Assembly (NCBI GenBank): GCA_021822165.1
Contig: JAKARM010000002.1
Span: 1 to 35,949 of the forward strand
From: Microcaldota archaeon
GTDB taxonomy: Archaea > Micrarchaeota > Micrarchaeia > Micrarchaeales > Micrarchaeaceae
Reading direction: 5' to 3'
Length of the DNA: 35,949 nt
A model generated the notes under the pieces. The model was not told the DNA's origin and searched no databases. It saw nothing but the letters and a program-made list of their open reading frames with translations. Below are positions 1 to 28,579 of this stretch, piece after piece. The first letter of the stretch is position 1. Each line of letters opens with the position of its first letter. A program made the translations under genes and the position numbers.

Positions 1-1209
1 GCGCTTGCGGCATTCCTTGCGCTCATGGTACCCCTTGCTGCTGGGCAGGCAGCGACGGCATCTTCGGTCAACCTGTCGAGCATGCATTGCATAATAACAG
101 GTTCGGACACAAGCATCGGCACATGCATAGGATATGCCTTTCCGATAGGATTCATAGGCATAATGATCTCTTTCGCAATAGTGGGGCTGGCGTTCATGGT
201 CGGCGAGGCCCTGGGCATGGACTCGCTGAAGGGGTGGTACAGGAGGGAGATGAACGAAACTGTGAAGTCGACGATACTGCTTGGCTCCATACTCTTCGTC
301 CTGCTGGTGCTGAGCTCGATCGCGGTCATAGCAACGGGGGGCACCGCGTCGGCGGCGGGCAGCGCAGGAAGCGGAATCGCATCGAACCTACAGGGGCTCT
401 ACTCCAGCGACATGGGAAGCTACCTCCATCCCGAGATGGTGGCGACCACAAAGGCGTTCAGCGACATGCTCTCCTTTTCCATGGGGCTCTACCTGCTCAA
501 GTCATTGACATTCACAGTATCCATACCCTATCAGATCTATTTTGTCGAGGTCGTGCTGGGCGCGACATTCGTTCCCTATTCCAGCAACGTGCTCGCGACC
601 ACATCGGCCCTCACCTATTCGTTCATATCGGACATGCTCAACCTTGTCGTCATACCGATGTCGGCGCTCTTCATAATGCTCTATGACCTGTTCCCGTACA
701 TGATGGAGTACGCGCTTGCGGTGCTCCTCCCCCTGGGGCTCATAATGCGGTCGATCCCCTTCATGAGGAACATAGGGGGGACGCTCATCGCGATAGCGAT
801 AGGGACCGCGATCGTATACCCCACGATAATCCTCCTCTTCAACCTGCCGGTCACCAACTATTTCACGGAAACACTCCAGCTCCCCACATTCAGCGCGTCA
901 GGAAGCACGCAGCTCGGCAGCTTCAGTTCGGCGGACAGCCTCTTCTCCATACTGGAGAATAATGTCAACATAGGCAGCTCGAAGCTCTCCCAGTTGTCCT
1001 ACGACGAACCCTTCTGGACCGGCTTCATAGGCAGCCTCGACAGCATATACCCATCAATAAACCTGATAACATACGAATTAATGAATCCACTCATACAATT
1101 CTTCCTCAACATATTCGACATAATAATCGTATTGATAATAACAGGCAACATTGCGCAGATGCTCGGAGGCTCGCTCACGCCGGGCCTAGGAAGGTTGAAG
1201 ATTGCATGA
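1..1209 (+). CDS. Polytopic membrane protein, paralog 1 of a six-gene array (5'-truncated by window edge)
   Basis: Frame stays open upstream of the first ATG at 25 (ALAAFLALMVPLAAGQA reads like a signal peptide), so the true start is probably outside the window. Multiple TM segments; motif LPLGLIMRSIPFMRNIGGTLIAIAIGTAIVYP. Confidence 0.85.
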   Translation, partial: ALAAFLALMVPLAAGQAATASSVNLSSMHCIITGSDTSIGTCIGYAFPIGFIGIMISFAIVGLAFMVGEALGMDSLKGWYRREMNETVKSTILLGSILFVLLVLSSIAVIATGGTASAAGSAGSGIASNLQGLYSSDMGSYLHPEMVATTKAFSDMLSFSMGLYLLKSLTFTVSIPYQIYFVEVVLGATFVPYSSNVLATTSALTYSFISDMLNLVVIPMSALFIMLYDLFPYMMEYALAVLLPLGLIMRSIPFMRNIGGTLIAIAIGTAIVYPTIILLFNLPVTNYFTETLQLPTFSASGSTQLGSFSSADSLFSILENNVNIGSSKLSQLSYDEPFWTGFIGSLDSIYPSINLITYELMNPLIQFFLNIFDIIIVLIITGNIAQMLGGSLTPGLGRLKIA

Positions 1210-1218
1210 GATGATCCG

Positions 1219-2400
1219 ATGGTAAACACATGCGCGATATTGGGCGGCTCGACCTACGTAAATAGCTGGGTCGGGATAAACGTCCTTATCGTCCTCATAG
1301 GGTTCGCCGCGGTATCGGCGGCTTACATGTTCAGCAAGCTGGGATCCGCAAGCCTCAGAACGCGCATGGCGGAATTGGCGAAGAGCGAGATAGCCCAGCT
1401 GATGGTGAGCCTGATCCTGATAGTCGTGCTCATCGCTTTTTCGAAAGCGGCGTGCGGGATATCCGCTTCCGTAAGCCAATCCCTGACAGGAACGCAGATG
1501 AACCCCTTCCAGTTCGCGGACAGCTATTTGGGGGAGCTTGCCTTCGTGAAGGGGCTTGGGCTCTTTTCGACAATCGCCTCTAAATCCCTGGAATACATAG
1601 TAGACAGCAACATATATGCGATATTGCCCAAGATCCTCGGCAACTTTCTTACGTCCACTGGGTTGACCTCCTGCGCGGCTGAGCCGGCAAGGCTAGTCAC
1701 CGTCAGTTTCAACATATTCAACTTCGGATGCGAGCCATTCGCGAACATGTTCATAATGTTCGAGATGCTCTCGTACCTCTACCTTGAGCTCTTCGCTCCA
1801 GTCATCATATCGTCCGTTGCCGTGCTGTTCGTGCAGTACCTATCGATACCCTTCATCCAGTACCTTGCCTTCGCCGTGGCGCTGCCTGTCGCCATAGCGC
1901 TGCGCGCCATACCATTCGGAGGGCCCGGGCTCAGGTCGGCATCGAATGCGATACTTGCGCTGGCGATAGCCGCATATATAATCTATCCCCTCACGATATC
2001 GTTCGACGCCTGGGCCATGAACTACATATTCAGCAGCAGCAACCCGATGTTCCCCTACCTCCATTCGACATACCTGCTGAACAACGCCCCTCCCCCGAGC
2101 TTCCTGCAGGAGATACCCAGCAACACGATAAGCTTCTTCGGGACGACTACAAACTCGGTAGAGTCCCTGGTCAAATCGATGTTCGACTCGACGAGCCTGA
2201 TTAACTTCATACCTTTCTTCAACGTACCCCATACGATAAGCGACACGGAGCTCATCGCCAACGAGATAGCGCAATACGTCTTCCAGGCGGTTTTCCTGCT
2301 TGCGCTGGATGTGGCGATAACCGTAGGGTTCGCCGCGAGCCTCGCAAAGGCGCTCAACAGCGGGATAGGGGGCGGGGCGGCGTTATGGTCAGGGTTATAG
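1219..2400 (+). CDS. Polytopic membrane protein, paralog 2
   Basis: 393 aa, hydrophobic; starts 10 nt after paralog 1 stop; divergent motif LPVAIALRAIPFGGPGLRSASNAILALAIAAYIIYP. Confidence 0.85.
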   Translation: MVNTCAILGGSTYVNSWVGINVLIVLIGFAAVSAAYMFSKLGSASLRTRMAELAKSEIAQLMVSLILIVVLIAFSKAACGISASVSQSLTGTQMNPFQFADSYLGELAFVKGLGLFSTIASKSLEYIVDSNIYAILPKILGNFLTSTGLTSCAAEPARLVTVSFNIFNFGCEPFANMFIMFEMLSYLYLELFAPVIISSVAVLFVQYLSIPFIQYLAFAVALPVAIALRAIPFGGPGLRSASNAILALAIAAYIIYPLTISFDAWAMNYIFSSSNPMFPYLHSTYLLNNAPPPSFLQEIPSNTISFFGTTTNSVESLVKSMFDSTSLINFIPFFNVPHTISDTELIANEIAQYVFQAVFLLALDVAITVGFAASLAKALNSGIGGGAALWSGL

Positions 2401-2401
2401 C

Positions 2402-3796
2402 ATGGTCGCAGATATCGGATTTCCGGCGTTGGCGCTTATCGGCTACCTGACAGCCGGGAAGTCCTTGCTCCCGCTCGTCTCCGTGGCGCTGCTCCTTGAC
2501 TCTGCCATAGTGGCGGTCTGGTATTTTGTAGGAAGCATGCTCAAGAACAGCGCCCTAAAGGCCGGGGCGATATCGGAATTCTACCAGCTGGGAGGGACCG
2601 TCGTGATAACGATAGCGATACTGTCGACCCTGGGGATAGCGGCGAATATGTTTTCCGGCGCGCTCAACAGCACCCACCTGATGAATTCGGGAACATTGAC
2701 GACCATGTGCGACGGGCTGATGAACCCCGGCGGGAACCCCAATAACCTGAACATACTGGGCCCCTCGTATTCGCTCCTTTCTGGAGGATCATCCACTTCA
2801 AGCACATCCTCGTTCCCGGGCCTCTGCAACATGCTCTCCCCGACGACGATGGGCGGGAAGATAGACTACCCCCTTGTCGCATCGTCCGTCATAATCGCGA
2901 ACCTCACGAACCAGACCGTCACGAACCTCAACGACTTTTTCTATGTAGATAACTTCATAATGTTCCTATCCACGTTCACGCCCTCCATATCCGCATGCCT
3001 GGGGGCGCTGGATACCTGCGCTGCGCAGGCAGGGGTATCGTTTACCCCGTACGCCGGGATAGATTCCATGAAGAGGAACTTCAAGAACATGGGTTCGATC
3101 CTGACCATGGCGACAGAATCGTTCATAGCCCAGCTGATACTGTCAAGCATGTTCCTGTACATATGGCCCTACCTGCTCTTCATAGGGCTTGTCCTCAGGG
3201 CGACATTCTTCACCAGGAAGATAGGAGGGCTCTTCATAGCGCTGGCCATAGGGGGGATCCTCTTTTTCCCGATAATGTTTTCCGCCGAATACCTCGCCTT
3301 GGGGAATGGCGTGCCGCTCACGCAGGCGCAGCTGAATGCATATGGGTACAACAGCGTCAACGCCCAGACGCTGCAGCTGCCTGCAGGCTGCACCGGGGGA
3401 ACCACATCGAAGCCAAGCTGCGGCAGCTACAACCTGAACTTCTATACGCTGCCGAGCTTCAAGGAGATAGCGATACAGAACCAGTGCTGGACCCCCCACT
3501 ACATACTTGACGAGGGGCTTGATGTTGGCGGGTGGCTTGTGGCGCCAATCGGATTCCTGGTAAACCTGGTAAACCACTTCCTGACAGGGGCGCCTGTAGG
3601 ATTGTTCCCGATCGTCTGTTCCACCACCAACCTAGCCGTCATGATAATGCAGATGTGGCAGGCGGTAGCCATAACAGGTATAATAACGTGGATCATACCA
3701 ATATTGAACATAATGATAGTTCTCTCTGGAGTAAGGGGGATATCGGGGTTGATGGGAGGGGATACAACGCTTGCAGGGCTTTCGAGGCTGATATGA
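2402..3796 (+). CDS. Polytopic membrane protein, paralog 3
   Basis: 464 aa; starts 2 nt after paralog 2 stop; motif LFIGLVLRATFFTRKIGGLFIALAIGGILFFP. Confidence 0.85.
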   Translation: MVADIGFPALALIGYLTAGKSLLPLVSVALLLDSAIVAVWYFVGSMLKNSALKAGAISEFYQLGGTVVITIAILSTLGIAANMFSGALNSTHLMNSGTLTTMCDGLMNPGGNPNNLNILGPSYSLLSGGSSTSSTSSFPGLCNMLSPTTMGGKIDYPLVASSVIIANLTNQTVTNLNDFFYVDNFIMFLSTFTPSISACLGALDTCAAQAGVSFTPYAGIDSMKRNFKNMGSILTMATESFIAQLILSSMFLYIWPYLLFIGLVLRATFFTRKIGGLFIALAIGGILFFPIMFSAEYLALGNGVPLTQAQLNAYGYNSVNAQTLQLPAGCTGGTTSKPSCGSYNLNFYTLPSFKEIAIQNQCWTPHYILDEGLDVGGWLVAPIGFLVNLVNHFLTGAPVGLFPIVCSTTNLAVMIMQMWQAVAITGIITWIIPILNIMIVLSGVRGISGLMGGDTTLAGLSRLI

Positions 3797-3802
3797 GGTG
3801 AT

Positions 3803-5029
3803 ATGATGAGGGTCGATATTGGTGCGCTGCTTCTCGCCGCTGTGGTAGTTGCGGCGGTGATGCCCAACGCCGCCTTCTCCCAATCGGTATCCGGAGGGGT
3901 GCCCCCCTCCACATACTGCGAGGGGCTGATAAACTCGGGGGCGGCGGCAAGCCAGTACCAGCTCAGCGGCATACTTCCCATAGCGGTACTCATCATGCTC
4001 GTGATGCTGATGGTCTCGGGGGTGGCATACGCCCTCGGGAGGGCCTTCATGATAGGCAGGCTGACGAACTTCGCCAAGACAGAGATAGGAGAGGTGATAA
4101 TAACAGGGCTCATTGTGGTGGTCTTCCTTGGGACCTTTGCCCTTTCCACGAGGGTTGCAGGCGCCCAGAATTTCCTGGCGATAGACAGGGGATACGCGAA
4201 CACCCCGGTCTTCGTAAAGGATTGTTCCTACCTCTCGGACACCTCTGTCACGCTCATGGACAACTATTTTATCTTTGCCGCAGCGCAGACCCTGCTCAAC
4301 CTGATCACAAACCTAAAACTCTCGGTGAAGCTTAATGCCGCCATAGGCTCCGCCGTAAGCGGATCTGGACCGTTAGGAGGAATAGCCGCCTACGGATTTA
4401 ACGTAACCCCCTTCAAGGGGCTGACCCTCGTGACAGGGGAATCCTCGTTCGGGCTGGGAGGGCTGTCTGGCGGAAACGGCATCATGGGGAACTTGCTTAC
4501 CATATCCTCTTCGATAGCGATGCTCCTCATAGGCATGACCGTCTTCCTCTCGTTCATATATGCCCTCTTCCCGATCTTCTTCTACATAGGGATAGTTCTC
4601 AGGACTTTCACGCTGACCAGGGCCGCCGGGGGTGCCTTCCTCGGCCTGTTCATAGGATTCTACATATTCCTGCCGTTGATGCTAAGCCTTACCCTGGGGG
4701 TCAATAGCGCATACTTAGACACATACACATCGTCCCAGTTCTGCAGCAGCACAGGGCTCGGATGCCCGAGCAGCAGCATCACGACATGGCTGGGCAACGC
4801 ATGGAATCTGATATCGTCGCCATTCCAGATACTGGGGTGCGGGCTCTCAAGCACGAGCTCCTGCCTCTACAGCGTGATGATACAGAAGACCATAGAGCCC
4901 GCGATGTACACGCTGGCGGGCGTTGTGCTCTCCCTCATATTCTCATTCGACTTCGGGAATGCAGTGGGAGACATGCTGGGAGCGCCGTCGCTCAGCACGA
5001 GGTCGGTATTGAAGAGATGGCATATATGA
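3803..5029 (+). CDS. Polytopic membrane protein, paralog 4, with N-terminal signal peptide
   Basis: 408 aa; signal-like N-terminus MMRVDIGALLLAAVVVAAVMPNAAFSQ; motif FYIGIVLRTFTLTRAAGGAFLGLFIGFYIFLP. Confidence 0.85.
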   Translation: MMRVDIGALLLAAVVVAAVMPNAAFSQSVSGGVPPSTYCEGLINSGAAASQYQLSGILPIAVLIMLVMLMVSGVAYALGRAFMIGRLTNFAKTEIGEVIITGLIVVVFLGTFALSTRVAGAQNFLAIDRGYANTPVFVKDCSYLSDTSVTLMDNYFIFAAAQTLLNLITNLKLSVKLNAAIGSAVSGSGPLGGIAAYGFNVTPFKGLTLVTGESSFGLGGLSGGNGIMGNLLTISSSIAMLLIGMTVFLSFIYALFPIFFYIGIVLRTFTLTRAAGGAFLGLFIGFYIFLPLMLSLTLGVNSAYLDTYTSSQFCSSTGLGCPSSSITTWLGNAWNLISSPFQILGCGLSSTSSCLYSVMIQKTIEPAMYTLAGVVLSLIFSFDFGNAVGDMLGAPSLSTRSVLKRWHI

Positions 5030-5033
5030 TTGC

Positions 5034-6164
5034 ATGGCCAGGAACATAAATCTCGCAGTTGCCCTTTTCGCGGCGTCGCTCCTAATGGCAGTGCCGGTCG
5101 CGGCTGCCGCCGCGCAGCCATCCGCATTCCCGAACATCGTCTCGCCGGCGGGATTCGAGGGGCTGGCCGCAGTCATGGTGCTCGCCGTAATCTCGGCATC
5201 GGCGATGGCATACGGACTCGGCAACATAATAAACAGGGCTTCGGTGAAGGAGTGGTCGAAATCGCAGATATACGAGGCCCTTCTCTCCCTGGCGCTGCTG
5301 GTGCTTTTCGCTGGATTCCTACACCTCTTCCTGATCAACCCCATCCACGCATTCAGCACGTTGAGGCTGGTGCCGAATTCGTGCTCCTCTTCTTCGGCAG
5401 CGCCGCCCACCAACATTTTTGAGCTGTCGGCATGCGACCTCTCGTCGTTCAACAACAACGCCTTCAACGCCTATGGCGGACTGTTCTGGCTGACATTCCT
5501 CTCAAGTTCAGTGCCGGGAGTAGAAATAAAGATAAGCCCATTCGGCATCTCCCCGTCAGCAAGCGGAGGGGTGCCCATCTCCGGGAGCGATTTCGGAGGG
5601 ATAACGTTAAGCACGGAAACCGACCTGGTCCCGACATCGGCAGACCAGTTCTTCAGCTTCGCCTTCTCCATACTGCTCTTCGCCATAGCGCTGAACCAGG
5701 TGCAGATGATACTGCTCTCGTCGTCGATGCTCTTCCTCTACCTCTTCATAACGATAGGGCTTGTGGCAAGGATATTCGGCTTCTCAAGGGGGTTCGGAGG
5801 GGTGATGATCGCGCTGGGGCTCGGGCTCGGCTTCGTCTACCCACTGCTTGTAAGCATCACATACGGATTCATAAACGTGCAGCTGCAGAGCTTCGGGGCA
5901 GGGCTGCCGTTCTTCGCCCAGGGGATAAATTCCTTCTCGATGGCGGTATACTTCATCAAGCTGCTCCTCGGATTCGTTGAGTCCCTCTTCACTTCCACCC
6001 TTTCCATCAACCCCAATGTGATGGGAATGGTGGGCGACCTTATAATAGGGCTTACGCTGATACCGATCATGAACTTCGTGATACTGGATACCTTCATAAT
6101 GGATTTCTCCGCCTCGATAGGGGAGAGGTTGAACTTCATGTCCCTGCTGACGGGATTCATATAG
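5034..6164 (+). CDS. Polytopic membrane protein, paralog 5, with N-terminal signal peptide
   Basis: 376 aa; signal-like N-terminus; motif ITIGLVARIFGFSRGFGGVMIALGLGLGFVYP. Confidence 0.85.
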   Translation: MARNINLAVALFAASLLMAVPVAAAAAQPSAFPNIVSPAGFEGLAAVMVLAVISASAMAYGLGNIINRASVKEWSKSQIYEALLSLALLVLFAGFLHLFLINPIHAFSTLRLVPNSCSSSSAAPPTNIFELSACDLSSFNNNAFNAYGGLFWLTFLSSSVPGVEIKISPFGISPSASGGVPISGSDFGGITLSTETDLVPTSADQFFSFAFSILLFAIALNQVQMILLSSSMLFLYLFITIGLVARIFGFSRGFGGVMIALGLGLGFVYPLLVSITYGFINVQLQSFGAGLPFFAQGINSFSMAVYFIKLLLGFVESLFTSTLSINPNVMGMVGDLIIGLTLIPIMNFVILDTFIMDFSASIGERLNFMSLLTGFI

Positions 6165-6172
6165 GTGCGATA

Positions 6173-7282
6173 ATGAAAATATTAAACATCTTGGCGGCCG
6201 TGATGCTGGCAGGGCTTATCCTGCCAACAGTGGTGTCGGCCCAGGCAAGCGGGTGCGGACTGCTTCCTAAAAGCCTCAGCGCCACCATATCGAACAATGC
6301 GCCATGGTACTGCCCGATAAACCAGCAGATATACAGCTATTGGGTCAAGTGGATGCCGCTCGTATCCGTGGTCGTCCTCCTTTCGTTCGCGATAGCCGGT
6401 ACGCTCATCATGGTAGGGATAGCGATAAAGAGCGAGAGGGTTAAGAACCTCGGGATAGGGGAGATGTACGAAGCTACGGCCAGCACGATAATAGTCGTTC
6501 TCTTCCTTTCGGTCTGCGCCATCATGTTCGGGCTTGGGCCTGCCGTCACCGTAGGCAACCTCAACCCCTATGCGACCTCGTTCCACCTGATAAGCGGTAC
6601 GATATACCAGGCAGAAGGGTTATACCAGTCCTTGGTAAGCGTCTATACCACAGACGCGTTCTGGGCGAGCGTGTCGCCTTCGTTTACAGCCGTCGGCCCG
6701 ATCACGAGGGTACTCGGATTCATAGCCAACATACAGCCGTTTACGACGATAATCAAGATACTGGTGCTCGCCGAGATCACCCCGATCGCGACATTCCTCA
6801 ACTCAGCGATAGCCATGCTTTATCTCGAATATTATACGATCCTCTTCTTCGCCATGGCTGCGATTCCAGTCTTCCTCATACCCGGGACGATATTCAGGGC
6901 GTTCGCTCCGACGAGGGGGATGGGGGGCATGATGATAGCCATATCAATGGGGTTCTTCCTTGTAATGCCCTCGCTCTTTGCCGTGGTCTACTATTTCACA
7001 TCGCCAACGCTCATGAACAACATGGCGATAGCGAATGCCCAGATAACGCGGTTCAGCCAGGGCACCGGCGCCGAGACGAATGCGCTTTCCGCATCCAGCC
7101 CGATAGTATCCCAGCTGCAGCAGATAAGCCCGAGCATAAGCAGCTTCTGGCTGCTCATACTGTTCTACCCGATTGCGATAGGGGGGATAACCTACGCATT
7201 CATAGTCACGATATCCGATTTCATAGGGGGAGCGACATACATGGGGTCGAGGATGAGGTCATTCGGAGGGCTTGGGATGTAG
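6173..7282 (+). CDS. Polytopic membrane protein, paralog 6, with N-terminal signal peptide
   Basis: 369 aa; MKILNILAAVMLAGLILPTVVSAQ signal; motif FLIPGTIFRAFAPTRGMGGMMIAISMGFFLVMP. Confidence 0.85.
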   Translation: MKILNILAAVMLAGLILPTVVSAQASGCGLLPKSLSATISNNAPWYCPINQQIYSYWVKWMPLVSVVVLLSFAIAGTLIMVGIAIKSERVKNLGIGEMYEATASTIIVVLFLSVCAIMFGLGPAVTVGNLNPYATSFHLISGTIYQAEGLYQSLVSVYTTDAFWASVSPSFTAVGPITRVLGFIANIQPFTTIIKILVLAEITPIATFLNSAIAMLYLEYYTILFFAMAAIPVFLIPGTIFRAFAPTRGMGGMMIAISMGFFLVMPSLFAVVYYFTSPTLMNNMAIANAQITRFSQGTGAETNALSASSPIVSQLQQISPSISSFWLLILFYPIAIGGITYAFIVTISDFIGGATYMGSRMRSFGGLGM

Positions 7283-8252: not shown

Positions 8253-9320
8253 CTACGCTTTCTTTATCTTTTTGAGGTCCTCCTTCCTGACTGAAAGCCT
8301 TACGGTGCCGGTGCCGACGGAAACCTGTTTGCCTATCAGTATGTTTTCCGCAACCCCCTTGAGCATGTCCCGCTCCCCGAAGACGCTGGCGTTGATGAAG
8401 TGCTTTACGGTCTCCTCGAATGCCGCCCTTGCCAGGACGGATTCCTTGCTGCCGGCGATCCCATGCCTGCCGACGCCCATGATTATCCCCTTGTGGGTCA
8501 TCGCGTCTGCGACGAGCGAGATGTGCCTGAAGCTTACGCCGGCCCCCTCGTTCGCCATCGTCATGTTGAGCTCGTTGGCGATGAGGTTCCTTGCGGCCTC
8601 TATCCCGTATACGTGCAGCATCTCGAATATGTTGTTGGTGTAGACGTGCCTCTTGTCAACCCCCTCTATCTTTATCACCTCTTCCAGCTCGCTGCCGCTG
8701 GTCTCTATGTAATAGCCTTTCTTGTCGGGAGTCTGCTGCACGATCGCCTTCTTTATGCCCTTTATCCCGAAAACAACGGCGGTGCGCACGTTCACGAAAG
8801 CGGTCCTTGCCTCCTTCATGTCGGCCCTCTTCTTGCCGGCCCCGATGGCTTTTATCTTGAGCGTGTTGTCCCCCTCTGTCGAGACCTCTATCCTCTCCAT
8901 CTTCGATATCCTGCTCACCACGCTCCTCTGCGTCACCTCGTAGGCTGCCATCTTCTCCTTGTCCAGGTAGAGCAGCATCACGCCCCCCTTGAGGTCCTCC
9001 GAAAATCCCTTGAGCAGGGAGCCTACCCTCACCTCCTCGATCTTGCGCCTTATCTCCCTGACCTTCTCGTAGTCACCAGCCACGCCCTTCTCGAGTTTTA
9101 TGTGCATGGACGGGGATTTCGGCTTCTTCTTCGCGTCGATTATCTCCTCTATCCTGGGAAGCCCGGTCACGACCACTGCCGATGCGATCCCTGCGGAGTG
9201 GAATGCCCTAAGCACCATCTGCGTCGACGGCTCGCCGAGCGATTCCGCGGCGAGCACGCCTACAGCCTCCCCCGGGGAGATATTTACATTTTTTGACTGG
9301 AGATCTAGTTTCTTTTCCAA
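8253..9320 (-). CDS. rpoA2: DNA-directed RNA polymerase subunit A''
   Basis: 355 aa: NISPGEAVGVLAAESLGEPSTQMVLRAFHSAG..., TGLPRIEEIIDAKKKP; downstream of A'. Confidence 0.97.
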   Translation of the reverse strand: MEKKLDLQSKNVNISPGEAVGVLAAESLGEPSTQMVLRAFHSAGIASAVVVTGLPRIEEIIDAKKKPKSPSMHIKLEKGVAGDYEKVREIRRKIEEVRVGSLLKGFSEDLKGGVMLLYLDKEKMAAYEVTQRSVVSRISKMERIEVSTEGDNTLKIKAIGAGKKRADMKEARTAFVNVRTAVVFGIKGIKKAIVQQTPDKKGYYIETSGSELEEVIKIEGVDKRHVYTNNIFEMLHVYGIEAARNLIANELNMTMANEGAGVSFRHISLVADAMTHKGIIMGVGRHGIAGSKESVLARAAFEETVKHFINASVFGERDMLKGVAENILIGKQVSVGTGTVRLSVRKEDLKKIKKA

Positions 9321-9329
9321 ATAAACACC

Positions 9330-11873
9330 TCATTCCAACTTCATCAGCTTCTCCTTGGACGGGTCTATCCCGTCCCCGCCATACATGACCTGTATGAGCG
9401 AGCCGCTCGCGTCCTTCGTCCCGAGGCTTTCGTCGACGTAGAAGTCCTGCATCGCATTGAGCAGGCGCCTGTACATGTATCCGCTCTTCGGGGTGACCAG
9501 CGCCTTGGATACCGCGGAGTCCCTGGACCCCATTGCATGCATGCAGTAGTCCATGACCGTCATGCCGCTCACGTAGTTCGATATGACGAACCCCTTAGCC
9601 CTCGGGTTCCTCTCCCCCCTCCTGAAGTAGGGGAGCAGCCTCCTGAAGTAGCCCCTCGAAGGCCTCTTGCCCCTCACGTCCTGCTGGCCGAGGAACATGC
9701 TCGTCTGCACGAAGTTCATGATGTTGCCTCGCGCGCCGACCCTCGCCATGAGGTAGGCGTTGTTCGTCCCGTCGAGCAGCTTGTTCAGCGCGCCGCTCGC
9801 CATCGTCCTTGCCTCCCTGAGCCTTACGCTGGTGAGCACCTCGAGGGTCTCCCTCTTGGTGTAGCCCAGCAGCGCCTCGAAATTGCCCTCCTTGTACTTG
9901 TGGAAGAGCTCCGCCGTCTTGCCCTCGACATTGCTTATAATCTCCCCCCTCTCCTTGTTCATCTCCGGGCTGTTGAAATAGTCCTTGACGCTGAGAGTGA
10001 CGCCGCTCATGTATGCGGCCCTGAGTGCAAGGGTGTTTATCTTTAGCAGGAGATCGGCGATGTAGTCGGGGCCGTACCTGTTGAAGAGCGAAAGGATCAT
10101 CCTCGCGCCGCCCTTGGCGCCGATGAGCCTCTCGTCTATGGTGCCCTCGACAAGCTCACCGTTCTTTATCTTGACGTTCCCGGACTGGAACTTCATCTCG
10201 AAATCGAAATCCTTGGGCAGCGCGCGGGAGAATATGAGCTTCCCGCTGTACATGCCGTCCTTGTCCGGATGCGGAAGCTCGTCAGAACCTATGCTTGAGA
10301 GCATTATGCAGGCCTCTTCCTTGTTGAAGCGCGCCCCGTCCCTCGTAAGCAGGAATATCCCTACCAGCTCATCTTCCCCTGAGGACATTATGGGCCTGCC
10401 GTCCTTCATGGAAAGGAGTATGTCCTTGGGCTGCATCAGGTACCTCGATTCCGCGCGGGCCTCGAGGGACTGCGGCACATGGAGGTTCATTTCGTCCCCG
10501 TCGAAGTCGGCGTTATAGGGAGTGGTGGCGGTGTTGTTCAGCCTCATCGTCTTGCCGGGCAGCACCTTCACCGTATGCGCCATGATCGAATGCTTGTGCA
10601 GCGAGGGCTGCCTGTTGAACAGCACGATGTCTCCGTCCACGAGCTGCCTCTCGATCACATGGCCCGGCTCCAGGGCATTCTTAAGCTCCTCCCTGGTGAT
10701 GTCGGTCACCCTCTTCCTCACCCCGTCCTTAGTCAGGACGTTTGTCACCATGGGGTATTCCGTGCTGTCAAGCATCTTCTTCATGGAATCGAGGTTCCAT
10801 ACTGTAACGTGCAACGGTATCGTGAGGTTCTCCGCAATCCTTCTCGGGACCCCAACATGGTTTATCGTGAGGCTGGCGTCCGCGGATATTACGGTCCTCG
10901 CGGAAAAGTTGACCCTCTTCCCGCTTAGATTGTACCTAAGCCTCCCCTCCTTCCCCTTTATCCTCTGCGCTATCGTCTTGAGGGGCCTGGAGCTCCTATG
11001 CCTCGCGACCGGGACGCCGGGCGTCTCGTTGTTGAAATAGGTGGTGACATGATACTGGAGCAGCTCCCACAGGTCGTCTATTATTATCTGCGGGGTGCCT
11101 GCATCTATGTCCTGCTCGAGCTTCTTGTTTATCCTGAGGATCTCGACGAGCTTGTGGGTCAGGTCGTCCTCGCTCCTTTCCCCCGTCTCCAGGGTTATGG
11201 AGGGCCTCACGTTCACGGGAGGCACAAGGATGGATGTGAGTATGAACCATTCAGGCCTGCTCACCGACGAATCTATCCCGAGCATGCCAAGGTCGTCGCC
11301 GCTTATCTTGGAGAGCCAGTCCCTTATCTCGTCGGGCTTGATCCTGTTGCCCTCCGCATAGAACATGGTCGGCCTCTCGAATTTTATCTTCTTCTGCTTC
11401 GCCCCGCAGTGCGGGCACTTGCTCATGCCCTTCATCTTCTTTATCAGGAAACCCTTCTGGCTGTCGTGCTCCGCGAGTGCCTGCCCTTCCTTGCTGTCGT
11501 CTTCCTCCACGAACTTCCTTATCTCCCCCCTGATCCTGTCGAGCTCTGCATCGTTGAGGAGGACCCTGTGGCAGTCGTTGCAGGTGTTCTGGAGGAGGAA
11601 ATATATGCTCTTCGCAAACTCCGGATGGACGACAGGCCTGACCATCTCTATGTGGCCGAAATGGCCGGGGCAGGTCTTGGACCTCCCCCCGCAGGTCTTG
11701 CACTTCAGGCCGGGGTCGACCACGCCCATCCTCTGGTCTATGAGCCCGCCGTCTATCGGGTACCCGTCGTCGTTGTAGGTATCCGGGACTATGAGCTTAG
11801 CCACGCTCATCCTCCGTATCATCTCAGGGCTTATTGTTGTAAATTGTATATAGTCTATCACTTCGGCCTGCAT
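9330..11873 (-). CDS. rpoA1: DNA-directed RNA polymerase subunit A'
   Basis: YNADFDGDEMNLHVPQS catalytic motif; CKTCGGRSKTCPGHFGHIEMVRPVVHP. Start set at MQAEVIDYIQF (11873), since the longer ORF overlaps rpoB1. Confidence 0.97.
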   Translation of the reverse strand: MQAEVIDYIQFTTISPEMIRRMSVAKLIVPDTYNDDGYPIDGGLIDQRMGVVDPGLKCKTCGGRSKTCPGHFGHIEMVRPVVHPEFAKSIYFLLQNTCNDCHRVLLNDAELDRIRGEIRKFVEEDDSKEGQALAEHDSQKGFLIKKMKGMSKCPHCGAKQKKIKFERPTMFYAEGNRIKPDEIRDWLSKISGDDLGMLGIDSSVSRPEWFILTSILVPPVNVRPSITLETGERSEDDLTHKLVEILRINKKLEQDIDAGTPQIIIDDLWELLQYHVTTYFNNETPGVPVARHRSSRPLKTIAQRIKGKEGRLRYNLSGKRVNFSARTVISADASLTINHVGVPRRIAENLTIPLHVTVWNLDSMKKMLDSTEYPMVTNVLTKDGVRKRVTDITREELKNALEPGHVIERQLVDGDIVLFNRQPSLHKHSIMAHTVKVLPGKTMRLNNTATTPYNADFDGDEMNLHVPQSLEARAESRYLMQPKDILLSMKDGRPIMSSGEDELVGIFLLTRDGARFNKEEACIMLSSIGSDELPHPDKDGMYSGKLIFSRALPKDFDFEMKFQSGNVKIKNGELVEGTIDERLIGAKGGARMILSLFNRYGPDYIADLLLKINTLALRAAYMSGVTLSVKDYFNSPEMNKERGEIISNVEGKTAELFHKYKEGNFEALLGYTKRETLEVLTSVRLREARTMASGALNKLLDGTNNAYLMARVGARGNIMNFVQTSMFLGQQDVRGKRPSRGYFRRLLPYFRRGERNPRAKGFVISNYVSGMTVMDYCMHAMGSRDSAVSKALVTPKSGYMYRRLLNAMQDFYVDESLGTKDASGSLIQVMYGGDGIDPSKEKLMKLE

Positions 11874-11878
11874 ATCGA

Positions 11879-13720
11879 TCACCCGTTCTTCAACTTCACC
11901 TTGCCAAGGATGTGCAGGGACTTGATCTCGAAAAGCAGCAGCTTGAAGGCATAGCTTATCTCGACCTTCTCCAGGTTGTGCCCCTCGCAGAGCGAGCACA
12001 TGGCCGCATTCTTGATGTAGTCATAGTACCCTATATCCCCGCAGGTCTTGCATATCCAGATGTCCACCTTGTCGCTCTGGTCAAGGAGCCTGTCCTTTAT
12101 GAGCAGGCTTGCGCCATGCCCTACCAGGGCGTCCCTTTCCATTTCCCCGAACCTTATGCCGCCCCTCCTGTTCTTGCCTTCGGTCGGCTGGTGGGTGAGT
12201 ATCTGCACAGGGCCCCTGCTCCTCACCTGCAGCTTGAGGCTGACCATGTGCATGAGCCTGTTGTAGTAGACTATGCCGTTGAATATCTTCGCGCCGAACC
12301 TCTTTCCTGTCCTGCCGTCATAAAGCTCCTCGTCCCCGAAGCTGTCGAAGCCGTACCTCTTGAGCACGTTCCCGTACTGCTCGACCCTCTCAGACCCTTC
12401 CTTGGAGAAGGGTGTCCCGTCGTACGTCCTCCCTTCCAGCGCGGCGGCCTTCGCCCCCAAGGTCTCGAGCATGTGGCCGAATGTCATTCTGCTCGGAAGG
12501 CTGTGCGGGTTCAGCAGGAGATCCGGGACTATGCCATCCTTTGTGAATGGCATGTCTTCCGGCGGGACGATGAGGGAAACGACCCCTTTCTGCCCGTGCC
12601 TGCTTGCGAACTTGTCCCCGACCTCGGGGATCTTGACGCTCCTTATCCTGACCTTGACGATCTTCGTCGCCTCCTTGGTCTCGCTGAGCATCACGTTGTC
12701 TATCGTGCCCTCTTCCCCGTACCTCAGGGTCACTGAATTGTCCCTGCTCTTCTCCTCCCCTATGCCGAACGCCGTCTGCTCCTCGAGGAACCTCGGAGGG
12801 GAAAGCTTCCCTACAAGCACGTCTCCCTCCTTCACCTCCATGTCGGCCTCGATTATGCCGTCGTCGCCAAGCTTCGCGTATGCGTGCTCGCCGAGATACC
12901 CCTCGGTGGTCGGCTGCGGCACCTTGAAATGGTCCTGCTGGCCGCCGGGATACCTGTTTTCCTCGTCGGAATAGGTGCGGAAGAAAGCGCTCCTTGCAAG
13001 CCCCCTGTCCACGGCCCCCCTGTTCAATATGATAGCGTCCTGCATGTTGTACCCGTAGTAGGTCGTGAGCGCCACAACGAAGTTCTGCCCGGCTGGGTGC
13101 TTCTTGAGGTTGAGGGTCCTGTATGACGCGCTGTTGACTATCGGATTCTGCGGATAGTACATGACGAATGCGCGCGCATCGTACCTGTTGTTGAAATTCG
13201 TGGCATAGAGCCCCTGCCCCTGCTTCATGAAGTTGGCGGAGATCGGATGCCTCCCTATGCTGTTGTGCTCCGGAAAGACGCTGGAATTCATCGTGAGCCC
13301 GAGCACCGATGCAGAATCGACGTCTATATGCGTCGTCTCCTTTGTGACGTTCTCCTCGTTTGATGCGGCTACGATGTCCTCCTCTTCTTCGGCGTCAAGG
13401 TACTCCACGACCCCGCGCCTGAGCAGGTAGTTGATGTCTATCTCCTTCCTATCGAGCTTCTCCCTGAGCTCCTCGGTGAACTTGCTGGCGCCGTTCTCTA
13501 TTATTATGTAGGGCTTCCTGACCCTCCCCCTGTCGGTATTTATGTGGACCTCCCCTATCTTCTCCACGTAGGCGACATTAACCTCTCCGGAAATGAGCCC
13601 TTTCCTCCTGTTCTGCCTCACCTCGTTGGAGAACGCCTTGCCGTCGGCCACAGTCCCTATGTACCTTCCGTTCAGGTACACCTTCGAACCATTTTTAGAT
13701 AAACTTTTTCCGGATACCAA
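11879..13720 (-). CDS. rpoB1: DNA-directed RNA polymerase subunit B' (C-terminal half of split B)
   Basis: 613 aa: YNMQDAIILNRGAVDRGLARSAFFRTY, KFASRHGQKGVVSLI, C-terminal zinc motif CKTCGDIGYYDYIKNAAMCSLC. Confidence 0.97.
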   Translation of the reverse strand: MVSGKSLSKNGSKVYLNGRYIGTVADGKAFSNEVRQNRRKGLISGEVNVAYVEKIGEVHINTDRGRVRKPYIIIENGASKFTEELREKLDRKEIDINYLLRRGVVEYLDAEEEEDIVAASNEENVTKETTHIDVDSASVLGLTMNSSVFPEHNSIGRHPISANFMKQGQGLYATNFNNRYDARAFVMYYPQNPIVNSASYRTLNLKKHPAGQNFVVALTTYYGYNMQDAIILNRGAVDRGLARSAFFRTYSDEENRYPGGQQDHFKVPQPTTEGYLGEHAYAKLGDDGIIEADMEVKEGDVLVGKLSPPRFLEEQTAFGIGEEKSRDNSVTLRYGEEGTIDNVMLSETKEATKIVKVRIRSVKIPEVGDKFASRHGQKGVVSLIVPPEDMPFTKDGIVPDLLLNPHSLPSRMTFGHMLETLGAKAAALEGRTYDGTPFSKEGSERVEQYGNVLKRYGFDSFGDEELYDGRTGKRFGAKIFNGIVYYNRLMHMVSLKLQVRSRGPVQILTHQPTEGKNRRGGIRFGEMERDALVGHGASLLIKDRLLDQSDKVDIWICKTCGDIGYYDYIKNAAMCSLCEGHNLEKVEISYAFKLLLFEIKSLHILGKVKLKNG

Positions 13721-13730
13721 TCAAACACCA

Positions 13731-15191
13731 TCAGATGAGCTTCAGCTCCTTCAACTTGTCCTCCACCATCGTCTCCTCGGTGCCTACAGTCACCTTGGAC
13801 ATTATCGCGAGATACCTGGTGAGCCCTACCTCCTGCCCTTCTGGGGTTTCGCTCGGGCATATCTTCCCTATATGGGTGCCATGCACATCGCGGGCCTTGA
13901 AATGCGCATGCTTCTTGGTAAGCGGCGACTTCACCCTCCTCAGGTGGGCGAGCGAGCTCAGGAAGTTCATCCTGTCGAGGACCTGCGAGACCCCGACATG
14001 CCCGCCCGGCCATGAGCCGGTGCCCATGGCGTATTTTATCTTTTCGGTAAGGGTGTCGGGATTTATGCTCGTCCGCACCGTGAGCCTCCTGCCCCTTGCG
14101 GTGGTCCTCTCTATGTGGTACTTGATGTCCTTGCTGAAGGCCTTGAATGCCTCGTTGAAAAGCTCCTCCACCAGATCCCCGGCAAGCCTCACCCTCTTGT
14201 TGGCGTAATGGTCCCTGTCGTCCTCCTTCGTATAGCCGTAGGCGACAAGGGATGCCCTGGCCGCCATGTGCAGCAGGAAACGGGCCTTGTTCATCCTGCT
14301 CTTCGCATCTATGCCGAGATGCGGCAATATATAAGTGTCAACCTGCACGCTGCCCCTCTTGTGCTGGTAGGCCTTGGGCTGCGCGGGCGCGGATATCTTC
14401 CCGAGCTCCTCCAGCCCCTCGTTCGGGGTCATCTCCACGGCCTTGCTCTCGGCTATGTTAAGCATGAAGTCGTTCTTGATGTCTTCGTTAGTGACGTTTT
14501 CGAGCACCTCCTTTTGCCCGAGCCCGAGCGCCCTCAAGACCAGTATCAGGTCTATCCCTTTCGTCGCGGTAGGGAAGAGAACCGTGAACATGCCGTAGTT
14601 GTCCCTTGTGACAGTGCACCTGCTCTTGAATGTAAGCGAGGTCGAAAGCACCCTGGCCACTATGCCGTCGTCCCTCTTGTTGCACATCACCCTGTTTGGG
14701 GCGAGGTCCTCTATGCCTATCAATGCACGCTCTATGCCCCTTATTATGAAATACCCCCCAGGATCGTCCGGGTCCTCTCCGGCGGCGCTGAGCTGCTCCC
14801 TGCTCATCCCCTTGGTGTAGCAGAGATCGCTCTTCACCATCACGGGAAGCTCCCCCACAAAGACCTCGCCCATCGCATCCTTCTTCTCTATGCCGCTTAT
14901 CATAGGGACATAAGTAAGATACATCGGTGCGGAGTATGTGAGATTCCTCGCAAGCGCCTCGTTGGGCATCACCTTCCTCACCGAGCTGTCTGCCTCTATC
15001 ATCCTTGGCATCTCGAACCTCACGCTTTCGAGCTTTATCGCAAAGTCGGAAACCTCGGGCTCTATCATCCTGTGCGTCTCGACGACCTTATGCACTCCGA
15101 GGTTTATGAATCTGTTATAGCTATCTATCTGCTGCTGCACCATCGATGTCGTGCCCAGATATGATTCTAGAAGTTCGTGATTCTTGCTCAT
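13731..15191 (-). CDS. rpoB2: DNA-directed RNA polymerase subunit B'' (N-terminal half of split B)
   Basis: LLESYLGTTSMVQQQIDSYNRFINLGVHKVV, GYFIIRGIERALIGIEDLAPNR, HVGVSQVLDRMNFLSSLAHLRRVKSPL. Likely start MSKNHELL at 15191. Confidence 0.97.
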   Translation of the reverse strand: MSKNHELLESYLGTTSMVQQQIDSYNRFINLGVHKVVETHRMIEPEVSDFAIKLESVRFEMPRMIEADSSVRKVMPNEALARNLTYSAPMYLTYVPMISGIEKKDAMGEVFVGELPVMVKSDLCYTKGMSREQLSAAGEDPDDPGGYFIIRGIERALIGIEDLAPNRVMCNKRDDGIVARVLSTSLTFKSRCTVTRDNYGMFTVLFPTATKGIDLILVLRALGLGQKEVLENVTNEDIKNDFMLNIAESKAVEMTPNEGLEELGKISAPAQPKAYQHKRGSVQVDTYILPHLGIDAKSRMNKARFLLHMAARASLVAYGYTKEDDRDHYANKRVRLAGDLVEELFNEAFKAFSKDIKYHIERTTARGRRLTVRTSINPDTLTEKIKYAMGTGSWPGGHVGVSQVLDRMNFLSSLAHLRRVKSPLTKKHAHFKARDVHGTHIGKICPSETPEGQEVGLTRYLAIMSKVTVGTEETMVEDKLKELKLI

Positions 15192-15217
15192 ACAAAACAC
15201 CGGAGGATGGACCTCCT

Positions 15218-15472
15218 TCAGGCAGTGTCGACTACGACCCTGTAATAAGTATACTTTACGTTAAGGTCCTTCCTGTGGATGGCGACCAGCTGGCCGGGAA
15301 GAGGCGACAGATCCATTATCTGGGGATCCGATTTCAATATCTTCGGGAACTTATTGAGTGGGGTTTTTAGCTTTTCTGATATCTTTCCGCTTTCGCTCTC
15401 GCTGAGGAGTTCGTGCTCTACCACAATTTCAAAATCAAAATCAGATCCAGCAACCAATTGCACACCAACCAA
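15218..15472 (-). CDS. rpoH: DNA-directed RNA polymerase subunit H (RPB5-like)
   Basis: LNKFPKILKSDPQIMDLSPLPGQLVAIHRKDLNVKYTYYRVVV; position at head of the RNAP cluster. Exact start uncertain. Confidence 0.88.
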   Translation of the reverse strand: MVGVQLVAGSDFDFEIVVEHELLSESESGKISEKLKTPLNKFPKILKSDPQIMDLSPLPGQLVAIHRKDLNVKYTYYRVVVDTA

Positions 15473-27158: not shown

Positions 27159-27185
27159 TATTTATGTTTTATAGGGGTGTGTCGA

Positions 27186-27902
27186 GTGACTATAGTGTGC
27201 GCAATAAAATGTAATAATGGGATAGTTATTGGCTCTGACGGACAGGCAAGCGTTAATACGACTGGAGGTGCCATAAGACATCAGATTCAAAAGATATATC
27301 AAATCGGGGAAAATTCAATTTTCCTAGCCAGTGGAACAATAGGTCTTATACAAAAAAGCATAGAAATAGTAAAAGCCCATTCCGATGAACTAGATTCTGG
27401 TTTTAATACAGAGGTATTGGAGGCCATAAAAAAAGGTATATTTCCAATAGTTAAGAGTGCAAGAGATACATATGTACAATATAATAACAAAACAGAAGGG
27501 GTGCCAACAGTTGATATGCTCTTGTGTGGATTGAACAAGAATAAAGAATTAAGAATGTGGCATGTGGGAGCAGACACGCATGACGAATTCATAGATGTAG
27601 TAGGATGCTATTGCAGCGGAAACGGAGAAACTTTTGGATACTCTCTATTAAAAAGCCTCATGCAGTCTTCATCGAACATAACTTCTGGTAAACTCATAAT
27701 TTACAGGACTTTAAGGGACACAATAAATTCGCTTGCTGTAGGCGTAGGAGGACCAATAGATATCTGGTATATTCAGGATACCGGAACAATACACAAATTA
27801 TCGAACAAGGAAATTGAGGATCTTTCCAGATTGTACAAGAAATGGAAGGAGATAGAGGCAAATTTCTTATCTGGCAAATTAGTTGATTCGGTAATTAAGT
27901 AA
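27186..27902 (+). CDS. Proteasome-beta/HslV-like Ntn hydrolase
   Basis: From GTG 27186 the product is M-TIVCAIKCNNGIVIGSDGQAS...QKIYQI. Thr1 and Asp17 register matches HslV/proteasome beta; a lysine at 35 is the probable Lys33 equivalent. GGGGTG ribosome-binding-like site upstream. Confidence 0.75.
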   Translation: MTIVCAIKCNNGIVIGSDGQASVNTTGGAIRHQIQKIYQIGENSIFLASGTIGLIQKSIEIVKAHSDELDSGFNTEVLEAIKKGIFPIVKSARDTYVQYNNKTEGVPTVDMLLCGLNKNKELRMWHVGADTHDEFIDVVGCYCSGNGETFGYSLLKSLMQSSSNITSGKLIIYRTLRDTINSLAVGVGGPIDIWYIQDTGTIHKLSNKEIEDLSRLYKKWKEIEANFLSGKLVDSVIK

Positions 27903-28579
27903 TGGATGAGAAGATGAACAAACGTAAAGATAAATTGTTATCTGGTAATAGGGTTGCAGACGTTGACATTAAAAAAACAAAACCAACCAACAACACAGAG
28001 GTTAAAACCATACAGCATGAAAATGTAAAGACCCTGACAGAGATAAAACAGGAATTAGTCAAAGCAGCAAAAATTAATCCATGCCCGGCATGCAAACACG
28101 ATACACAACAACTTGCAAAATTTATTTCGGCTAAATTAGATTCTATAAGAAATGATTCTTTGATAGACAAAAATGCAGTCAAATATCTTAAAGAACTCGA
28201 CTATATAAATGAACTTACAAATATAGCGATCGGTTTTTCCAAATTTATAAAGCCATTCACAAGAATTAGTAAGGTTCCTGAAGTATACGAAAAGGTTTTG
28301 CACGACGATAGGGAAGCAAACAAAAAAGTAAAAGAGTATTTATTGAAAGCTAGTGGATTAGCCAAAGAGTTAAAAGGTACTGACAAGCACTTCATGATTG
28401 TATCGGATATATTAAAAGCATTTACAAGAGCAACAGAATTCAAGTTAAGCGTTGACCCATATGCTTTTTATCTATTTGACAGAACACTCAAGTTGGGTTT
28501 TAAAACACATATTCTAAGCACCACAAGCAAGGCAATTGTCGGGATAAAAGGAATATTAAACCCATCAAAGTATTGGTAA
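27902..28579 (+). CDS. Unknown protein coupled to the Ntn hydrolase; helical, one CPAC motif
   Basis: 225 aa; TAATG stop/start overlap with upstream gene; INPCPACKHDTQQLAKFISAKLDSIRN. No family recognised. Confidence 0.75.
   Translation: MDEKMNKRKDKLLSGNRVADVDIKKTKPTNNTEVKTIQHENVKTLTEIKQELVKAAKINPCPACKHDTQQLAKFISAKLDSIRNDSLIDKNAVKYLKELDYINELTNIAIGFSKFIKPFTRISKVPEVYEKVLHDDREANKKVKEYLLKASGLAKELKGTDKHFMIVSDILKAFTRATEFKLSVDPYAFYLFDRTLKLGFKTHILSTTSKAIVGIKGILNPSKYW

Follow-up and report, generated by a model that had tools for sequence, protein, structure and literature searches.

VirB6 is among the least understood channel parts of the T4SS. Its solved examples are homopentamers (PMC9259494, PMC12857230), and in the R388 system the VirB6 pentamer forms a base on which VirB4 is believed to power the assembly of the VirB2 pilin (PMC9259494). 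The Ced and Ted systems of Thermoproteota (CedA/CedE, TedA; PMC9905601, PMC11868833) are minimal archaeal T4SS derivatives with a VirB2-like pilin, a VirB6-like CedA of 6-7 TM segments and a VirB4/HerA-like ATPase, and in them the VirB4 N-terminal region is divided between CedB and CedD. The rvh T4SS of Rickettsiales, a host-dependent lineage, has tandem, ancestral and highly diverged VirB6 paralogs that adjoin VirB3/VirB4; there are five in Rickettsia, about 80% divergent, and four in Anaplasmataceae (PMC2653234). Patescibacteria, which are reduced, host-dependent epibionts, have widespread chromosomal T4SS, mostly without a relaxase and with VirB2-like pilins (PMC12102498). The VirB6/CedA-like kind of protein is already known, as is the tandem multiplication of VirB6 in Rickettsiales (PMC2653234).

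The locus described here, from Micrarchaeota, resembles each of these systems in part. It contains six genes, numbered as slots 1 to 6 in their order. Like R388 VirB6 (PDB 7O3V; PMC9259494), which is the top fold match of slot 6, their products are polytopic and are encoded with a VirB2 pilin and a VirB4 ATPase. R388 has one VirB6 gene whose product forms a homopentamer with VirB5, whereas Micrarchaeota have six diverged genes, no recognised VirB5, VirB8-10 or VirB11, and a VirB4 that appears to be split into separate proteins. The division of the VirB4 N-terminal region is common to Ced/Ted and Micrarchaeota; a pilin of the Ced/Ted type is present, and the best NCBIfam matches of the ATPase are CedD and CedB. 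In contrast, Ced/Ted systems have one CedA (plus CedE in Saccharolobus) where Micrarchaeota have six genes, the N-terminal-domain proteins of Micrarchaeota carry no ATPase, and the system belongs to Micrarchaeota and not to Thermoproteota. The rvh machine belongs to diderm bacteria, includes VirB8-11 and VirD4 and has 4-5 paralogs rather than six; its paralogs are not shown to keep fixed positions and to have been copied together as an array, and its likeness to Micrarchaeota is an analogy of layout only. The Patescibacteria systems are bacterial and related to the MPF-FATA class, and a six-VirB6 array is not described among them.

The window, by which we mean the whole stretch of 35,949 nt that was analysed, opens at base 1 of its contig (G000:C7) in an assembly of 0.78 Mb and 37 contigs, so the beginning of slot 1 is cut off and the upstream side is missing. 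Positions 1-7282 hold six consecutive, co-directional ORFs for polytopic paralogs on the plus strand, with intergenic gaps of 9, 1, 6, 4 and 8 nt. Gene starts are simple ORF calls. HMMs built for each slot from relatives, with the window proteins left out, place the six in order as slots 1-6 (E 5e-98 to 1e-139):

1..1209, plus strand: slot 1, VirB6-like polytopic membrane protein, 5'-truncated; 402 codons with an open 5' end; slot-1 HMM E 3.3e-107
1219..2400, plus strand: slot 2, VirB6-like protein with the most divergent TR..GG motif; 393 aa; slot-2 HMM E 9.7e-120
2402..3796, plus strand: slot 3, VirB6-like protein; 464 aa; slot-3 HMM E 1.1e-132
3803..5029, plus strand: slot 4, VirB6-like protein; 408 aa; slot-4 HMM E 5.4e-98
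5034..6164, plus strand: slot 5, VirB6-like protein; 376 aa; slot-5 HMM E 3.6e-105
6173..7282, plus strand: slot 6, VirB6-like protein whose AlphaFold2 model matches R388 TrwI/VirB6 first; 369 aa; slot-6 HMM E 1.1e-139

Direct pairwise identity between ORF 1 and the other array proteins of the window is only 18-27%, and four columns are invariant across the six (G68, R250, R256 and P274 in ORF 1 numbering). A profile made from the other five slots nevertheless finds each omitted window protein with E 1.4e-17 to 2.2e-35, against a best E of 0.046 for controls consisting of shuffled copies and other window proteins. By this sequence comparison the six are paralogs beyond chance. Each has 6-8 hydrophobic segments in a simple Kyte-Doolittle scan, above the five helices that we took as the minimum for a polytopic protein. 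The motif R....TR..GG is found in five of the six slots, with T replaced by S in slot 5 and by M in slot 1; slot 2 reads LRAIPFGGPGLRSASNAIL at this position. A preliminary description of this DNA had proposed six consecutive paralogous ORFs lying 1-9 nt apart, and the ORF coordinates and leave-one-out scores bear this out. The lengths of 369-464 aa that it gave were recovered, with the qualification that ORF 1 has no true start, and the late motif that it attributed to all six holds for five, slot 2 being the exception.

Two other groups of genes in the window were read alongside the array. An RNA polymerase operon at 8253-15472 on the minus strand is convergent with it, and both large subunits are split, as read from the translations:

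13731-15200, minus strand: RNA polymerase B''
11879-13720, minus strand: RNA polymerase B'
9330-11999, minus strand: RNA polymerase A'
8253-9320, minus strand: RNA polymerase A''

At 27177-28579 on the plus strand the gene of a proteasome-family Ntn hydrolase (PF00227, 7e-10) overlaps by 1 nt the gene after it, which encodes a protein of 225 aa without a Pfam match; the two may form a pair.

The relationship of the array to VirB6 was examined at the level of fold. AlphaFold2 gave an all-helical model for slot 6 (pLDDT 86.7), and in a blind search of 350,542 PDB chains the first-ranked match of this model was 7o3v_G, TrwI/VirB6 of the R388 T4SS (prob 0.99, E 0.04, TMq 0.33, TMt 0.41; slot 6 only). 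This model-based match is weak: taken by itself the E-value does not reach significance, and the TMq value is low. It becomes convincing because the gene linkage and the independent results for protein 277b and the ATPase, given below, add to it. Pfam TrbL (PF04610) matched neither the six proteins nor the six-frame translated genome, scanning the six against Pfam and NCBIfam gave trivial sub-threshold matches only, and nothing meaningful came from hmmsearch when either the VirB6 or the 277 profile was run against PDB sequences. Alignment by hhalign to single R388 proteins, templates that lack power because they are single sequences, aligned the ATPase weakly and left TrwI and the TrwK N-terminus undetected.

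Twenty neighbourhoods from relatives, together with 80 named loci, give a near-invariant gene order: pilin-TM243-s1..s6-277a-277b-ATPase-p105-p138-CC243-P780. Median gaps between slots in the relatives are -4 to 4 nt. The ATPase is about 505 aa, p105 is 105 aa, p138 (a Zn-ribbon plus TM) is 138 aa, CC243 (a coiled coil with a winged-helix-like end) is 243 aa and P780 is about 780 aa. In the genome of the window 277a, 277b, the ATPase, 105, 138, CC243 and P780 lie on another contig (C1), apart from the array, so this operon is divided, as it is in G057 (L030); in several other families, too, the array and the ATPase are not adjacent. A TnpB-like ORF (IS200/IS605 type, by eye) lies between p138 and CC243 in the window's own genome (L045:6951-8156, G000:C1), and six loci (L103, L111, L112, L114, L117, L121) have slot 6 and 277a separated by an extra gene of about 680-810 aa, at about 5.8-8.2 kb.

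The ATPase belongs with HerA/VirB4 by its Pfam matches (DUF87 1.3e-20, AAA_10 1.7e-13, TraG 1.5e-10). Its NCBIfam matches (CedD 3.6e-20, CedB 8.3e-18, VirB4_CagE 2.1e-12) all fall below the curated equivalog cut-offs, and we therefore regard it as a relative and not an ortholog of CedD/CedB. Residues 59-326 align with the solved VirB4 4ag5 (1.8e-8). Walker A is present in 100 of 100 members of the ATPase family and absent from 277a (95 members) and 277b (98 members). In the model of 277b (pLDDT 79) a helical hairpin at the N terminus is joined to an alpha/beta domain; R388 IMC/VirB4 chains take the first four places among its PDB matches (prob 0.95-1.00), and the first rank in the blind fold search with the 277-aa protein was TrwK/VirB4 of R388 (prob 1.00, E 0.015). 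Protein 277b aligns to positions 24-276 of the 894 in the VirB4_plasma model (E 2.2e-4), and the separate ATPase aligns to positions 512-830. The simplest reading is that VirB4 has been split into an N-terminal half, present as the two paralogs 277a and 277b, and a separate motor half; the hairpin of 277a/277b may be VirB3-like. As to a coupling protein (VirD4/TraG-like), a further HerA/TrwB-like ATPase of 610 aa (TrwB_AAD_bind 4.4e-7) is encoded on C36 of the same genome, unlinked to the array.

The pilin gene lies upstream of the array in relatives and is off-contig in the genome of the window. Among 15 orthologs, eight match TrbC/VirB2 (best 9.7e-8) and four match T4SS_pilin (9.3e-7), and their alignment shows two hydrophobic helices together with a basic loop and a beginning that resembles a signal peptide. 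The preliminary description had suggested a possible VirB6/TrbL/CedA-like array and pointed to fold comparison and to linkage with secretion ATPases as the means of checking this. Both came out in its favour: TrwI/VirB6 heads the fold search, and in relatives the VirB4/CedB/CedD-like ATPase follows the array and the VirB2/TrbC-like pilin precedes it. The VirB6/CedA-like reading of the array is therefore supported.

The genome of the window has a second, compact locus on C24, in which the genes of a pilin and an ATPase accompany a single VirB6-like gene and a single 277-like gene. This one-VirB6 version is also found in families f1, f2, f15 and f24 (L147, L129, L131, L144), and it is the only version seen in some genomes (G012, G228). 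The G012 genome (C11, L147) is of the same family as the window and 94% complete; it has kept the single-VirB6 locus and has no six-gene array, so the array can apparently be lost. Downstream of the compact C24 locus there is a second, larger HerA_C-like ATPase (L014:11772-14339, 3.6e-6).

The closest public loci to the array are from Micrarchaeota; one of the sequences concerned is the complete chromosome of Ca. Micrarchaeum sp. A_DKE, which is in cultivation. A profile derived from the window finds matches in 56 of 61 family genomes (29/29 of those of good quality) and, with at most eight scored candidates per genome, in 208 of 225 genomes across the phylum (90/97 good ones). Exactly six VirB6-like ORFs are present in 46 of the 47 arrays bounded by TM243 and 277a, and the remaining one shows eight ORFs because two of its six genes are split. 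The same number was counted in each of the 13 arrays scored in other Micrarchaeota families.

Within the family tree each slot forms its own clade with 100% support. In a wider tree (102 sequences from 17 arrays in nine families) slot position requires 7 changes, where the minimum is 5, as against 94 for array identity; slots 1, 2 and 5 are single clades with moderate support (77-91), and position 3 scores better when held together. These values indicate a single origin of the array, followed later by its copying as a unit. Families f3, f4, f5, f10 and f20 have two arrays of six, and in f3, f4, f5 and f10 the second arrays group together within positions, as expected from the copying of complete arrays. 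Every slot is under purifying selection (dN/dS 0.03-0.16 in two close genome pairs). The earlier suggestion that the six are non-redundant and are not recent duplicates agrees with the slot clades, with the conservation of position across the phylum and with these dN/dS values. Directly after one array in f5 (L134:2224-6519), f10 (L137:14673-19595) and f4 (L145:12992-16900) there is a protein of 1300-1640 aa without any Pfam match, a candidate surface or cargo partner. One genome, G128 (97% complete; L136, L137), has two six-VirB6 arrays and one detected VirB4-like ATPase, which suggests that two channel sets share one motor.

We consider it very likely, taking this jointly with the assembly proposed below, that Micrarchaeota have a chromosomal machine of the T4SS type and that the six genes encode its VirB6/CedA-like subunits, none of them interchangeable with another. 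The parts of the machine would be the VirB2-like pilin, the six VirB6-like subunits, a split VirB4 and accessory proteins, the split VirB4 consisting of Walker-A-less 277a/277b, with their predicted N-terminal TM hairpin and VirB4-N-terminal-like domain, and of the separate VirB4/CedB-like ATPase. From the fixed number and order of the slots and the constraint on each of them we infer a base of six different subunits, and the fixed set of six paralogs is probably a hetero-oligomeric translocon. The six slots would come together at the membrane as a single hetero-oligomeric ring that serves as a base; there the ATPase may build the pilin into a short pilus, and it may drive macromolecules between cells, most likely at contact with a host or with kin. 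The more specific picture is a tentative one, to which we give somewhat less than an even chance: a hetero-hexameric base with six fixed positions and no five-fold homomeric symmetry, which arose once in the ancestor of most families, was copied whole and coexists with a homo-oligomeric sister machine built on a single VirB6.

The six could instead be interchangeable VirB6 isoforms, each forming its own homo-oligomeric channel with a shared pilin and ATPase and serving, for example, different substrates, hosts or conditions. The solved R388 assembly is a homopentamer (PMC9259494), the single-VirB6 locus in the same genome must homo-oligomerise if it is functional, and the two arrays and one detected ATPase of G128 imply that channel parts can outnumber motors. 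With free isoforms one would, however, expect both number and order to vary, and the arrays keep to six (with the one exception due to split ORFs) in a strict order of overlapping or near-overlapping genes, so that we regard interchangeability as unlikely. An arrangement in which five slots form a VirB6-type pentamer and one is a specialised accessory, perhaps VirB5/VirB8-like or pilin-docking, would suit the R388 pentamer, which matches a five-start pilus (PMC9259494), and slot 2 would be the obvious accessory, being furthest from the conserved motif and having the lowest leave-one-out score; yet the general topology and the leave-one-out profile are common to all six, and the conservation of slot 2 (dN/dS 0.06-0.09) resembles that of the other five, which makes this division of labour improbable. 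That the array is an unrelated transporter or lipid-handling complex, tandemly duplicated and beside T4SS-like genes by chance, is most improbable: the six lack Pfam or meaningful NCBIfam matches and the fold E-value is weak, but TrwI/VirB6 came first in a blind search, and compact loci in four families (L014, L129, L131, L144, L147) place a single homologue between pilin and VirB4-like genes, where VirB6/CedA would be expected.

The candidate cargoes of the machine are DNA, in uptake or exchange of the Ced type, or proteins delivered or exchanged at host contact. A search confined to the PF03432 family of relaxases, with one positive control genome, found none in 21 genomes, which makes ordinary conjugation unlikely. 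A virus-borne origin is without support, since no relative of the ATPase was found on viral contigs. Together these two results argue for a domesticated machine, used either for Ced-like DNA exchange (PMC9905601, PMC11868833) or as a host-contact device of the kind discussed for Patescibacteria (PMC12102498). Micrarchaeota are tiny and probably host-dependent archaea. Cryo-ET of A_DKE has revealed filaments between host and Micrarchaeon that its authors attributed to the host (PMC8975820); the VirB2-like pilin may be an alternative source.

Our search of openly accessible papers found none describing a six-VirB6 system in Micrarchaeota. What is new is that most families of the phylum have an invariant set of six and that this set has been duplicated as a whole array, together with the coexistence of a one-gene sister machine and the doubling of the motor-less VirB4 N-terminal proteins. 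The presence of a six-gene array beside a one-gene version in the same genome offers a natural comparison of homo-oligomeric and hetero-oligomeric translocons, and because the operon is present in Ca. Micrarchaeum A_DKE (L070), which is cultivated, the machine can be examined in a living co-culture. DPANN archaea thereby gain a concrete candidate device for the exchange of macromolecules with their hosts, in parallel with the T4SS of Patescibacteria.
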